Of a stretch of DNA of 51,971 nt, positions 29,067 to 43,776 are shown in pieces. The notes below the pieces were generated by a model that saw nothing but the letters and a program-made list of their open reading frames with translations, was not told the DNA's origin and searched no databases. Source of the stretch: Longimicrobium sp. Its GTDB lineage: Bacteria; Gemmatimonadota; Gemmatimonadetes; Longimicrobiales; Longimicrobiaceae. The DNA is taken from contig DASVWD010000228.1 of assembly GCA_036389795.1 (NCBI GenBank), positions 1 to 51,971 of the forward strand. Direction: 5' to 3'. Made by a program: the position numbers and the translations under genes. Position 1 is the first letter of the stretch; each line of letters starts with the position of its first letter.

Positions 29067-29489
29067 TCACCCCGCGGCCGCCGGCGCGCCGGACAGGAAC
29101 GCCTCGGGCTCGACCGCCGTGCCCGGGAAGGCGGCCAGCAGCGCCGGCAGCGTGGTGACCAGCGGCACGTCGAGGGCCCGCGCCAGCCAGACGAACTCGC
29201 ACAGCTCGGCCGGGCACCCCGACTCGACCACCAGCCGGAGCACCACCTTCCCCGACGACTCCACGTCGCTCGTGTGCAGGGCCGAGGCGGCGATCCCCTC
29301 CAGCTTCACCGCCTCGTCCAGCGGCAGCCGGCCGGCGCGCACCAGCGCGGCCACGACGTCGCGGAAGCGCGCCCGCCACACGCGCGGCATGGCCCAGCGG
29401 GGCTCGCGGGCGCGCAGGCGCCGCGCGAGCGCGGGGTCCAGCCCCGGGACGCAGAGCCCCGCCATCAGGTCGGAGTCGACGACGATCAC
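29067..29489 (-). CDS. Degenerate PIN-domain (VapC-like) protein
   Basis: 140 residues with the overall VapC pattern (MIVVDSDL, a W-R-x-x-F-R-x-V block, an SGC-A---CEFV block, PLVTT and a final AFP). Only Asp5 of the four acidic catalytic residues is clear. WRARFRDV has Arg where Glu is usual, CPAELCEFV lacks the usual Asp, and VPLVTTLPALL has Leu in place of Asp. It is therefore probably inactive as an RNase, though still paired with an antitoxin gene that overlaps it by ATGA. It could bind RNA or act as a corepressor. Confidence 0.7.
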   Translation of the reverse strand: MIVVDSDLMAGLCVPGLDPALARRLRAREPRWAMPRVWRARFRDVVAALVRAGRLPLDEAVKLEGIAASALHTSDVESSGKVVLRLVVESGCPAELCEFVWLARALDVPLVTTLPALLAAFPGTAVEPEAFLSGAPAAAG

Positions 29490-29674
29490 GCGTCCTCCGC
29501 CAGGACGAGCGCGGCGCCCGGGTCGGCGATCCCCCTGAGCCTTCCGCGCGAGCTGGTGAGGCCGTTCAGCAGGAGCAGCACCGCCGCGGTGCGCAGGCTG
29601 GTGCGGCTGACGCTGGCGAACTCCTCGAGCTCTTCGAGCAGGTCTTCGGGGACGTCGGGGACGGTCAGGGTCAT
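29486..29674 (-). CDS. Small antitoxin, ribbon-helix-helix-like
   Basis: 62 residues starting at ATG 29674. An MTLTVPDVPEDL strand is followed by two helices (EELEEFASVSRTSLRTAAVL), the layout of FitA/CopG-type antitoxins. It overlaps the PIN gene by 4 bases. A strong promoter and an inverted repeat precede it, consistent with autorepression. Confidence 0.7.
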   Translation of the reverse strand: MTLTVPDVPEDLLEELEEFASVSRTSLRTAAVLLLLNGLTSSRGRLRGIADPGAALVLAEDA

Positions 29675-29694
29675 GGCTCGGCTCCGTGTGCAGG

Positions 29695-29748
29695 GTACAC
29701 CGAACAGAATTCGAAGAATAGTGTACGCTGTGGACGAACCGAAGTCAA
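29695..29748 (-). promoter_or_regulatory. Promoter and operator of the antitoxin-PIN pair
   Basis: On the minus strand, TTGACT (29743-29748), 17 bases, TACACT (29720-29725). GTACAC (29695-29700) and GTGTAC (29721-29726) form an inverted repeat that overlaps the -10 box, with GAATTC at its centre. This is a typical antitoxin operator position. Confidence 0.65.
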
Positions 29749-29812
29749 GACTCCAGGCAGGGCCGCTAAGGAGCGGCACGAAGAGAGGGCGAGGCCGAGC
29801 CCGCGGGGAGCT

Positions 29813-33243: not shown

Positions 33244-34323
33244 TCAGGCCTTCGTGGGGTCGGGGGGGTCGTGGCGGAACCACGGCGCGCTCACGGGGCC
33301 GTCGCCGGTGACCTCGGTGCGCGCCTCGTCGGGCTCGGGGAGCGGCGACTTCTCCGCCTCGGCGATCACGGCGTCCAGCTCGCGGTCGATCTCGGCGTCG
33401 ATCGCGGCCAGCTCGGCGGTGCTCGCCCAGCGGTTCTGGGTGAGCGCGGCCACGTAGCGGTCGACGGGGTCGTTGGTGGTGGCCCAGTGCTCGACCTCGG
33501 AGGGGTCGACGTAGCTCTGCGAGTCGTGCTGCGCGTGGCCCTTGCGGCGGTACGTCATCACCTCCAGCAGGGTGACGCCGCCGCCGGAGCGGGCCCGGTC
33601 CACCGCGCGCTTCGCGGCTCCGTAGACGGCCAGCATGTCGTTGCCGTCCACCTGCTCGCCGGCGATGCCGTAGCCGGCCGCCTTGTCCACGAACGCCTTC
33701 GCGGCCGTCTGCAGCCGCGTGGGCGTCGAGTACGCCCAGCCGTTGTTCTCGACGACGACGACGAGGGGGCAGCGCTGCACGGCGGCGAAGTTGACGCCTT
33801 CGTGGAAGGCGCCGGTGGAGGTGGCGCCGTCGCCGATGTAGACCATGCCGACGCGGTCTTCCCCGCGCTGCTTGAAGGTGAGCGTGACGCCCGCCATCAC
33901 CGGCACCAGGTCGCCCAGCGGCGAGATCTGGCCGATGAAGCCGCGCTCGAAGTCGGTGAAGTGGATGTTGAGCTCCTTGCCGCGCGCGGGACTGTCGCCC
34001 TTGGCCATGTACTGGCGCACCACCTCGCCCGGCGTGGCCCCGATGGTGAGCATGGAGCCCAGGTTGCGGATGAGGGGGCTCAGCACGTCGCCGGTGCCGT
34101 CGGCGCGGCGGCGGAGCGCGTAGGCGCTGGCCACCGACTCGCCCTCCTGCCCCAGCGAGCGGAAGAGGCCGCCCACGACCTTGCTCTGGCGGAAGAGCGT
34201 CTCGAGCTTCTCCTCCAGCGCGCGGGTGAGCCGCACCAGGCGGTACATCTCCAGCAGCTGCTCGCGCGTGAGCCCGTGGGGGATCGCGGCGGCGGCGCGC
34301 TTCGTCGTGGTTCGGTTCGCCAT
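33244..34323 (-). CDS. 2-oxoacid dehydrogenase E1 component, alpha subunit (branched-chain type)
   Basis: 359 residues, thiamine diphosphate-dependent decarboxylase subunit. The ThDP motif runs from GDG (about 164-166, GDGATSTGAFHEGVNFA) to NN (193-194, VVVVENNGWAYSTP). The phosphorylation-loop-like YRRKGHAQHD block and LGQEGESVA are typical of BCKDH-alpha. First gene of the leftward set E1-alpha, E1-beta, E2, lipB, with a promoter about 60 bases upstream. No strong Shine-Dalgarno sequence. Product acyl groups go to E2; E3 is not in the window. Confidence 0.95.
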   Translation of the reverse strand: MANRTTTKRAAAAIPHGLTREQLLEMYRLVRLTRALEEKLETLFRQSKVVGGLFRSLGQEGESVASAYALRRRADGTGDVLSPLIRNLGSMLTIGATPGEVVRQYMAKGDSPARGKELNIHFTDFERGFIGQISPLGDLVPVMAGVTLTFKQRGEDRVGMVYIGDGATSTGAFHEGVNFAAVQRCPLVVVVENNGWAYSTPTRLQTAAKAFVDKAAGYGIAGEQVDGNDMLAVYGAAKRAVDRARSGGGVTLLEVMTYRRKGHAQHDSQSYVDPSEVEHWATTNDPVDRYVAALTQNRWASTAELAAIDAEIDRELDAVIAEAEKSPLPEPDEARTEVTGDGPVSAPWFRHDPPDPTKA

Positions 34324-34620: not shown

Positions 34621-35118
34621 CTACTCCAGGACGATAAGGGGGGCGCCTTTCTCGACGGTCTGGCGCTCCTGGACCAGGATCTTCGCGACGACGCCGTCGG
34701 CGGGGGCCTTCAGCTCGTTCTCCATCTTCATCGCCTCGACCACGATCACGCCCTGGCCGGCCTTCACCTGCTGGCCCACCTCGACCTCGATCTTCACCAC
34801 CAGCCCGGGCATCGGCGCGGCGACGGTCCTGTCGGCCTCCGTGTCGGCGCCGCCGGTCATCTCGCGGATGGCGCGGGTGCGCTCGTCCACCGCCTCCACG
34901 CGGAAGCGGTCGCCGCCCAGCGCCAGCTCCCAGCGGCCGCGCCGGTCGCCGGGGCGGGCGGAGAGCGTGTAGGAGCGCCCGTCCACCAGCAGGGTGCGCA
35001 CGGGCGTGCCCGGCAGGAGCTGCATCTGCGCCTCGACGGGGGTGCCGTCCACCACGGGCTGGTGCCCGGTGAGGTCCACCTCCACGGTGCGGTCGCCGAT
35101 CGTCACGTAGTAGCGCAT
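34621..35118 (-). CDS. Biotin carboxyl carrier protein of an acyl-CoA carboxylase
   Basis: 165 residues from ATG 35118. The C-terminal biotinyl domain (about 98-165) has the biotin-accepting Lys131 in VVEAMKMENELKAPADG. The N-terminal half (about 1-85) is a small beta-rich module like that preceding the biotinyl domain in propionyl- and methylcrotonyl-CoA carboxylase alpha chains. Biotin carboxylase is encoded separately at 37045-38553, so the alpha chain is split here. Carries carboxyl groups to the carboxyltransferase encoded at 44170-45720. CAGGG upstream is a weak ribosome binding site. Confidence 0.92.
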   Translation of the reverse strand: MRYYVTIGDRTVEVDLTGHQPVVDGTPVEAQMQLLPGTPVRTLLVDGRSYTLSARPGDRRGRWELALGGDRFRVEAVDERTRAIREMTGGADTEADRTVAAPMPGLVVKIEVEVGQQVKAGQGVIVVEAMKMENELKAPADGVVAKILVQERQTVEKGAPLIVLE

Positions 35119-35316
35119 GCAGCCCTGGTTCACGGTAACGGGAGAGCCGTCCACGAAAACGGGTCAACCTGCGCGTGCCGCCGCGCGCCCGCAATCCCAC
35201 CGTTCGTTTCCAGACTTATTGGGAACGGATTCTGCGCCATACGTTCACGAGTGCTCCACGTCGAACGTGAGCCCTGGGAGCCGCGCTCCGCATTTCACCC
35301 CACAATGGAGAGACCG

Positions 35317-35571
35317 ATGAAAAAGCTGAAACTGGAGCTCGACGCGCTGCAGGTGGAGTCGTTCGAGGCGGCGACGCCGGCGGCGCGGCTCGGAACGGTC
35401 AGGGGACGGGAAGACAGTTCGGGTGGTGGGTGGGAATGCGGGAATGCGTGCTACAGCTTCGACACGTGCTACACCTTAGACGGCGGGCAGACGTGTCCCG
35501 CCACGTGCGAGTACTCGTGCCTGTGCGAGAGCGACGTAGTCGACTGCATTCCGGACACGACCCACTGCTGA
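35317..35571 (+). CDS. Lanthipeptide-like (pinensin-type leader) precursor peptide
   Basis: 84 residues. The leader MKKLKLELDALQVESFEA matches the conserved leader style of the pinensin/Bacteroidota-Gemmatimonadota lanthipeptide precursors. After residue 33 comes a core rich in Cys (41, 45, 51, 60, 64, 68, 70, 77, 84), Ser and Thr, able to form several lanthionine or disulfide bridges. GGAGAG lies 3 bases before the ATG. No LanB, LanC, LanM, protease or transporter gene is within the window, so it is an orphan precursor that may be modified in trans, or a secreted Cys-rich peptide. It is on the opposite strand to both neighbours. Confidence 0.8.
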   Translation: MKKLKLELDALQVESFEAATPAARLGTVRGREDSSGGGWECGNACYSFDTCYTLDGGQTCPATCEYSCLCESDVVDCIPDTTHC

Positions 35572-38651: not shown

Positions 38652-39119
38652 TCAGGATGTTCCCTGGAGACCTTGGAGGTGCTCGTTGAAAAGCCAGACT
38701 CGAATCCCCTCCGACGCGACTCGTCTCAGCGAATAGTCATTGGTGACAATCCAATCCACCTCTCGTGAAAGGCCAGTCGCCACGTGAACGGCGTCAGGAA
38801 TGCGAAGGTTGTGCTTCGCCCGAATCCGTGACGCTTCGTCCGCGATGTCGGCATCTACATCGACCATCGTGAGATTCGGAAACCTCTCGAGCCCGATTCG
38901 TAGAGTGTGCGCTACCTGCGGCTGGTTCTGCCGATAGGGAAAAACCAGAAGTTCCGCGAGCGCGATGGACGAAACGATCGCCTCCAACCTTCCATCCTGC
39001 ACTCGTTCCATAATGCTGCGAGCAACAGGCCCATATTCTGGATGCTGCTCAACGAAGTAGACGAGCGCCACTGTGTCGAGCACAATACGCTCACCGTCGC
39101 TGAGGGCGGGTGTACTCAC
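38652..39119 (-). CDS. vapC: VapC-type PIN-domain toxin
   Basis: 155 residues, putative Mg-dependent RNase toxin. All four acidic positions are present: Asp15 (VLDTVALVYF), Glu in SIALAELLVF, Asp in IPDAVHVATG and Asp in VTNDYSL. I use GTG 39119, which overlaps the antitoxin stop as GTGA. GC content is well below the neighbours, suggesting acquisition. It pairs with the AbrB-type antitoxin just upstream. Confidence 0.88.
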   Translation of the reverse strand: MSTPALSDGERIVLDTVALVYFVEQHPEYGPVARSIMERVQDGRLEAIVSSIALAELLVFPYRQNQPQVAHTLRIGLERFPNLTMVDVDADIADEASRIRAKHNLRIPDAVHVATGLSREVDWIVTNDYSLRRVASEGIRVWLFNEHLQGLQGTS

Positions 39120-39346
39120 CGCTCCCACTCGTCGCGCATCCGCTGAATTTCTTCGGCCGCGTTCTTCCAGATCTCCTTCGGCAGCGACTCGAGCAGTTCC
39201 AAGGCTGATTGCGTAGACTTTCGGATGACGATGCGATCGTCCTCTGTCTCTAGCAGCAACTCGTCCCCGGGCTCGATGCCCAGCTTACGGCGAATCTCCA
39301 CTGGAATTACAATCTGGGATTTACTGCTCAGGCGAGCGGTTGGCAT
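39116..39346 (-). CDS. vapB: AbrB/MazE-type antitoxin (VapB)
   Basis: 76 residues. N-terminal swapped-hairpin DNA-binding domain (LSSKSQIVIPVEIRRKLGIE, about 5-45) and a C-terminal toxin-neutralising helix (about 50-76). ATG 39346 has AAGGAGG at 5 bases, so it is preferred over the GTG at 39352. Autoregulation is likely through the inverted repeat directly upstream. Confidence 0.88.
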   Translation of the reverse strand: MPTARLSSKSQIVIPVEIRRKLGIEPGDELLLETEDDRIVIRKSTQSALELLESLPKEIWKNAAEEIQRMRDEWER

Positions 39347-39358
39347 CTCCACCTCCTT

Positions 39359-42955: not shown

Positions 42956-43273
42956 TCAGGTCGGAACACGATACGCCCGGAGCTGGCGCAGCAGCTTGCG
43001 CGGATCCCGGCGAGTGTGCCACACGATCAGCACCACGATTTCAGTGGGATCGATGTGATAGACCACACGGACATTCTCAAAGACGACCTCTCGAAGCCGC
43101 GGGTTGTCGATACCGGCAACCGCGCGCCCGCTCTCGGGGAAGTCGCCGAGCCGCAGGACAGTATCGAACAGCTCCTGGGTCCAGTGAATCGAGGCGAGCG
43201 GCCGGTCGCGGGCAATGTACCTGGCCGCCGCCTCCGCGTGGTTGAGCGCCCGCTCGGACCAGCGGACGTTCAC
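42956..43273 (-). CDS. ParE/RelE-family toxin
   Basis: 105 residues. MNVRWSERALNHAEAAARYI, the two-helix N-terminus, then the beta-sheet core with GRAVAGIDNPRLREVVFENV, RVVYHIDPTEIVVLIVWHTR and a basic tail, as in ParE/RelE toxins. The start overlaps the antitoxin stop as ATGA. ParE members poison gyrase and RelE members cut mRNA; the sequence does not decide between them. Confidence 0.85.
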   Translation of the reverse strand: MNVRWSERALNHAEAAARYIARDRPLASIHWTQELFDTVLRLGDFPESGRAVAGIDNPRLREVVFENVRVVYHIDPTEIVVLIVWHTRRDPRKLLRQLRAYRVPT

Positions 43274-43707
43274 CCGCCGAGCCGCGAGAGCAGGTATGCC
43301 CGCGCCTCTTCATGAGAAACCGTTTTGCCCTCCGCCACCTCAAGCTGGGCCTGGTTGAGCTCCGTCAGGAACTCGATCTGGTCCAGCAGGTCCTCGTACT
43401 CCTCCACACCCAGCACCACGCTCCCAGCACGGGCCGGGGCGGCCGCGGCCACCGGCGCCTCGCGTACGATTCCCGGCGCGCGCTCCGGCGTGTCGGCGTC
43501 GTAGCGAGCCTCGCGCTGCACGGCCGCAGACGCGAAAGAGACCGCCGCGGCGACGGCTTCTTCCGTCAACTCGGGATGCCTCCGGAGCACCGCTTCGATG
43601 CCCGGCCCGCCCGCCAGCTCCCGCAGGATCTCCGCGACGGTGACTCCGGTGCCGGCGACCACCGCCTCCCCCGTTTCCGCATCCCGCACGATCGCGACGC
43701 GCTCCAT
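43270..43707 (-). CDS. Antitoxin fusing a DUF433 DNA-binding domain to a Phd/RelB-like C-terminus
   Basis: 145 residues from ATG 43707 (GGGAGGGG upstream). Residues 1-60 are a DUF433 domain (VVAGTGVTVAEILRELAGG, HPELTEEAVAAAVSFA). After a flexible Ala/Pro linker, about 97-145 resemble the toxin-binding tail of YefM/RelB-type antitoxins (VVLGVEEYEDLLDQIEFL, EGKTVSHEEARAYLLSR). It precedes and overlaps the ParE/RelE-like toxin gene. DUF433 normally pairs with DUF5615/PIN-like toxins, so this is a domain swap. Confidence 0.8.
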   Translation of the reverse strand: MERVAIVRDAETGEAVVAGTGVTVAEILRELAGGPGIEAVLRRHPELTEEAVAAAVSFASAAVQREARYDADTPERAPGIVREAPVAAAAPARAGSVVLGVEEYEDLLDQIEFLTELNQAQLEVAEGKTVSHEEARAYLLSRLGG

Positions 43708-43747
43708 GACACCCCTCCCGGAATGGTGGAATCGACCCGCTCGCGGA

Positions 43748-43776
43748 AAGGTAAGGCGTGCCCGCGGCGCCGTCAC
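43748..43776 (-). promoter_or_regulatory. Possible promoter of the DUF433-ParE operon
   Basis: On the minus strand, GTGACG (43771-43776), 17 bases, TACCTT (43748-43753), about 40 bases before the ATG. Confidence 0.4.

Follow-up and report, generated by a model that had tools for sequence, protein, structure and literature searches.

The prochlorosins posed two questions: how a single enzyme can act on so many substrates, and what use a cell has for so many products. To our knowledge, the known examples of such one-enzyme libraries are built on class II enzymes of cyanobacteria. The cyanobacterial class II libraries hold 29, 79 or at most 143 precursors per genome, the 143 being served by two synthetases (PMC10783134). 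A split LanB is known from the pinensin cluster, which makes a lanthipeptide (PMC7268733). An antiSMASH survey of Longimicrobium terrae recorded only three lanthipeptide regions (PMC7291104). Here, a 51,971-nucleotide stretch of a Longimicrobium sp. draft genome (the window) was analysed, and we give a probability of about 0.87 to the reading that a small gene within it codes for a lanthipeptide precursor of class I type, which belongs to a genome-wide set of about 150 and would be matured in trans by one synthetase, the set being a class I counterpart of the prochlorosins.

The initial annotation had described a precursor ORF with a ribosome binding site, a pinensin-like leader and a nine-cysteine core, and these elements are present in the sequence (Table 1). 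The gene lies in a gap of 520 bp, flanked by genes for a biotin-carrier protein and an RNA methyltransferase on the opposite strand, and the earlier remark that modification, protease and export genes are lacking nearby holds. No RiPP enzyme genes were evident among the window genes, and the profile search found no second leader-family member in the window. A longer mechanical ORF starting at 33271 runs antisense to pyruvate dehydrogenase-type genes. Elsewhere in the window, pairs of small neighbouring minus-strand genes (38652-39352, 42956-43776 and 29067-29779) resemble toxin-antitoxin modules in sequence (PIN-type/AbrB-type, RelE-ParE-type/DUF433-type and PIN-like).

Table 1. Features of the precursor gene and its immediate neighbours in the window.
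Feature	Position	Strand	Details or basis
Precursor gene, 84 aa + stop	35317..35571	+	ATG 35317, stop 35569-35571
Ribosome binding site GGAGAG, -10 to -5	35307..35312	+	sequence
Leader recognition segment MKKLKLELDALQVESF, aa 1-16	35317..35364	+	28-row alignment; weak NF038180 match
GTVRG motif, aa 26-30; presumed leader end / protease site (inferred)	35392..35406	+	
Core REDSSGGGWECGNACYSFDTCYTLDGGQTCPATCEYSCLCESDVVDCIPDTTHC: 54 aa, 9 Cys, 11 Ser/Thr, net charge -9	35407..35568	+	
Biotin-carrier protein gene	34621-35154	-	
RNA methyltransferase gene	35675 onward	-	

The window protein has no significant Pfam match; a trypsin-inhibitor-like (TIL) domain scored 12 bits (E 0.24), below the Pfam gathering score of 24.5, and was rejected. 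No Nif11 match was obtained in NCBIfam or Pfam. The sole NCBIfam match is a weak one to the pinensin leader model (NF038180, leader_pinensin), which covers aa 4-17 at 17.3 bits and so misses the curated cut-off of 24, whereas the relatives L153 (29.7 bits) and L158 (26.5 bits) pass it. The description of the leader as pinensin-like is therefore apt as a resemblance, but does not extend to membership by the pinensin family cut-off, nor to the leader end, where GTVRG stands in place of Gly-Gly. Bacteroidota loci recovered by the same LanB/LanC (among L168-L179) have pinensin-type leaders that end in T[VIL]xGG; since these leaders occur with the same enzymes, the two leader types appear to be homologous.

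With the window protein as query, 116 matching places were found in its own genome. A leader profile was built from 28 of these matches (alignment A1) and gave at least 150 places, nearly all with E below 1e-5; the window member itself scored 54.5 bits (E 1.5e-15), which is above chance. Extraction of the matched stretches yielded 154 distinct precursors, 142 of them at 20 bits or more; these counts come from the leader profile and a draft genome of 98% completeness and 3.75% contamination, and the real total may be somewhat higher. The paralogous leaders that the initial annotation had suspected thus form a large family. The precursors fall in 74 loci on 67 of the 285 contigs, and the largest arrays contain 15 (C259), 13 (C206), 9 (C75) and 8 (C112) genes. 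Because 49 of the 74 loci are single orphan genes like that in the window, cluster-based genome mining misses most such precursors. Sister genomes are similarly endowed, with at least 150 precursor matches each in G040 and G030 and 80 in G003.

Nine leader positions are invariant in the 28-row alignment (K3, L4, L6, L11, V13, F16, G26, T27 and V28). The family leader consensus reads MKKLxLDLDxLxVESFxT...GTVx[G/A], and a GTVx[G/A]-type motif follows the leader in 132 of the 152 members analysed. The consensus contains LxLD, replaced by LxLE in the window member; LxLD has been described as a variant of FxLD, the recognition motif of class I (PMC12710340). Upstream of 142 members, a G/A-rich peak at -10 to -6 marks the ribosome binding site, which alone stood out clearly in the search for a shared regulatory motif; the remaining enriched words (CACCTGC, CTCGTGC) resemble protein-coding sequence from adjacent tandem copies. 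Five tandem precursors on contig C31 (L146, 9758-11330) carry a related leader without GTV (for example SLNPEDLxVESFAT) and a common CCTGCxSGCGI core, and may constitute a separate subfamily.

The gap between the biotin-carrier and methyltransferase genes was compared among relatives. It contains a single precursor in this genome and in G042, two in G030 and three to four in G003; it is empty in G040, G048, G021, G024 and G009. A core beginning TCGGMSCDYAC is common to the G042 and G030 genes in the gap, and is unrelated to the window core and to the G003 core. A fresh insertion at the window site is too simple an account of a gap that is filled in three of these relatives and empty in five others; judged from these comparisons, precursors seem to have been gained, lost and given new cores repeatedly at this locus. 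No orthologue of the window core was seen among the precursors collected from relatives.

The genome contains one LanB, split into two ORFs on contig C225, where the genes for LanB-N, LanB-C and LanC stand in tandem. The glutamylation-domain ORF matches PF04738, and its closest PDB sequence is 6ec7 (TbtB of thiomuracin), while the elimination-domain ORF matches TIGR03891 and is MibB-like (5ehk). The LanC (679 aa, PF05147; L027, 13002-15038) carries the zinc-ligand motifs WCHG and LCHG, aligned to those of LicM2 and LanCL1. The three-enzyme set is 56-67% identical to that of G018. No leader-family precursor was found on C225, but the contig stops some 300 bp past LanC, in the region where precursors sit in several relatives. 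Two further sets are encoded elsewhere in the genome. Contig C28 (L028, 4450-13334) has two class II LanM enzymes with different, double-Gly-type candidate precursors that are unrelated to the leader family. Contig C285 (L029, 9895-13593, about 109.9-113.6 kb) has a LanC, a HopA1-family lyase and a third protein without a Pfam match, possibly a kinase, as in a class V-like lanthipeptide synthetase. In two relatives, a second PF04738 protein with a far higher score (L047, on contig C9 of G003; L048, on contig C322 of G042; E about 1e-153) is distinct from the split LanB.

In the draft assembly, the window precursor and the LanB/LanC genes lie on separate contigs, and their association is drawn from comparison between genomes. 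Across the order, 146 genomes were compared: 13 encode LanB (12 over the cut-off), and the 11 that carry the leader are all among these 13 (p 7e-15, with kinship ignored). In the genus itself, leader and LanB are found together in seven genomes and are both missing from three. Physical linkage is found in several relatives: G018 has one precursor between the eliminase and LanC genes and two after LanC, G015 has two between LanC and an ABC exporter, G040 has two after LanC, and G021 has this leader adjoining or within its LanB-LanBc-LanC set. G075 belongs to another family of the order, and its single leader match is the last gene of a LanB-LanBc-LanC-LanA operon. Of 16 loci from named public genomes, 12 have this leader no more than about 9 kb from a split LanB, and the other four are on short or truncated contigs; the linked loci belong to Acidobacteriota (including Thermoanaerobaculia), Ignavibacteriales, Melioribacteraceae and other Gemmatimonadota, and two of them have (GSTC)n cores. 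The earlier suggestion of maturation in trans, which presupposed that LanB/LanC-like enzymes would be found in the genome, is strongly supported by this co-occurrence and linkage.

Core statistics were obtained for the 132 cores that follow a GTVx[G/A]-type motif. The cores are 17-102 aa long and contain 2-24 Cys (median 7). At least nine Cys are present in 46 of them, so that the nine in the window core, rightly noted as many by comparison with characterised lanthipeptides, are ordinary for the family; the description of the product as 'linear' is not implied by the data. Net charge is negative in 115 of the 132 (median -4). Ser or Thr occupies the position directly before Cys in 51% of cases against 20% expected (z 29) and position -5 in 41% (z 20), and Cys-Cys spacing peaks at 4, giving the repeating unit [S/T]Cxx[S/T]C. 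Most of the -5 signal is accounted for by the residue at -1 of the previous Cys, since Ser/Thr is found there in 83% of cases where Cys is at -4 and in 26% elsewhere. The purest form of this grammar is seen in Acidobacteriota/Thermoanaerobaculia, where the core is almost perfect (GSTC)n (L158, 12815-13153; L160, 12924-13271). Ring closure is impossible between a Cys and the Ser or Thr immediately preceding it; the grammar therefore requires more distant partners, and part of it could have another origin.

Mean pairwise identity is 54% for leaders and 35% for cores, little above the 32% of shuffled cores. In 25 inter-species pairs with recognisable core orthologues, from a subset of loci, pN/pS was 0.58 for cores and 0.72 for leaders. 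By this measure, the cores are under purifying selection between species: they diverge among paralogues, yet once established they are maintained from species to species.

Cysteine-rich cores might instead be secreted disulfide or metal-binding miniproteins, in which the RiPP-like leader serves for export only and the Cys residues stay as thiols or disulfides. The presence of up to 24 Cys per core, the weak TIL match and the export genes that adjoin one of the arrays would be compatible with such peptides. However, odd and even Cys counts are equally common (65 and 67 cores, p 0.93), which is unlike what obligate disulfide pairing would be expected to give. Ser and Thr together equal or exceed Cys in 122 of the 132 cores, and the number of Ser/Thr follows the number of Cys when length is removed (partial rho 0.42, p 4e-7), a further argument against this alternative, as are the co-occurrence and operon linkage of the leader with LanB/LanC. 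We consider it improbable.

A second alternative accepts the LanB-type pair as the modifier and questions its chemistry: the elimination protein might perform a thiopeptide-like cycloaddition, or LanB-N a PEARL-like amino-acid addition, and the products would not be plain lanthipeptides. In its favour are the closeness of the LanB-N ORF to TbtB among PDB sequences and the match of LanB-C, besides TIGR03891, to the TbtD/PbtD pyridine synthase model, although that match is weak (67 bits against a cut-off of 325). Against it, a LanC accompanies nearly all of these LanB genes and the LanC of this genome has its zinc-ligand motifs, Cys is abundant in the cores with Ser/Thr to match, and the pinensin cluster yields a lanthipeptide with the same split LanB. 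This alternative is very unlikely. The least probable proposal, which is likewise very unlikely, assigns the modification to the class II LanMs or the class V-like set, both present in the genome, rather than to LanB. Against it stand the different double-Gly-type candidate precursors near the LanMs and the lack of co-occurrence of HopA1 with precursors across the 146 genomes (HopA1 is found in only three, including the precursor-free G024, and is missing from G030, G040 and G003, each with 80 to at least 150).

Candidate genes for leader removal and export were located by comparison with G003, in which an S8 subtilase, an HlyD protein and an ABC transporter adjoin precursor, LanC and LanB genes. 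Their counterparts in the present genome (68%, 51% and 75% identity, respectively) adjoin the 13-gene array on C206. The subtilase scores 138.7 bits against the QhpE model, below its cut-off of 165; QhpE is a subtilase that cuts the leader in the cytoplasm before ABC export (PMC7876137).

The LanC carries a C-terminal extension of about 250 aa, predicted by AlphaFold with a pLDDT of 89 and a pTM of 0.84. Structural matches of the model include TglI (Z 12.6), the RRE of TbiB1 (Z 8.7, 88 of 88 residues), which was solved with its leader, a region of TbtB (8.2) and PqqD (7.6). A Z near 8 is moderate alone; because many independent RRE proteins align to the same stretch of LanC, the modelled domain is assigned an RRE-like, leader-binding fold, and we infer that it binds the family leader. 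A similar LanC extension occurs in other phyla, including the Bacteroidota pinensin-type loci. No report of an RRE-LanC fusion was found in the openly accessible papers searched.

We propose the following scheme for the class I-type precursor. The LxLDxLxVESF leader would be captured by leader-binding (RRE) domains, one of them predicted at the LanC C-terminus. LanB would then glutamylate Ser/Thr of the core using Glu-tRNA, the separate elimination protein would produce Dha/Dhb, and Cys addition by LanC would yield (methyl)lanthionines in [S/T]Cxx[S/T]C units. Cleavage near GTVx[G/A] would fall to the QhpE-like subtilase, and export of the acidic, hydrophilic product to the ABC/HlyD pair. Cores with so negative a charge speak against a cationic pore former of the nisin type; our guess is that the mature peptides are a secreted, diversified repertoire for interaction or competition.

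More ambitiously, the system could be the largest known one-synthetase library and the first on class I enzymes, run by one Gemmatimonadota family (chiefly one genus), with about 150 precursors per genome, capture via a LanC-fused RRE, core turnover at fixed chromosomal sites, and polycyclic products bearing as many as about twenty thioether rings. We hold this fuller version tentatively, at a little under even odds. In a survey of 395 genomes of the phylum, the leader was found in 10, with 11 or more copies in one family only. The openly accessible papers searched contained neither a case of a class I one-synthetase library nor a report on this leader family in Gemmatimonadota. An independent class I case, with a separable dehydratase, eliminase, cyclase and predicted leader-binding domain, would make the promiscuity question testable with different chemistry, and some 150 leader-matched natural cores are a resource for peptide engineering.

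Compared with the known systems, the locus shares individual features with several. The subtilase is similar to that of the QhpE/QhpF system of quinohemoprotein amine dehydrogenase, although it falls below the QhpE cut-off and its substrates would be a peptide family, not QhpC. The RREs of TbiB1, TglI, PqqD and TbtB have the same fold as that predicted for the LanC C-terminal domain, here fused to the LanC cyclase. The pinensin family (class I, split LanB, Bacteroidota) is like the present one in its homologous leader (KLKLDxLxVxSF), its split LanB and the C-terminal extension of its LanC. It differs in the leader end (T[VIL]xGG, here GTVx[G/A]), in the protease (C39 is often found with GG leaders (PMC7268733), here S8 QhpE-like), and in having few, clustered precursors, where about 150 scattered ones with Cys-rich, acidic cores are found here. 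With the prochlorosins and synechococsins (Nif11-leader ProcA/SyncA, modified by the class II enzymes ProcM/SyncM), the family shares one or two synthetases serving many scattered precursors, and a constant leader joined to a variable core. In contrast to the prochlorosins, it has a class I LanB and LanC instead of LanM, an unrelated leader, a host in Gemmatimonadota, and cores of 17-102 aa with up to 24 Cys. What appears to be new here is that a probable class I lanthipeptide chemistry serves, in trans, a library of precursors spread over the whole genome.
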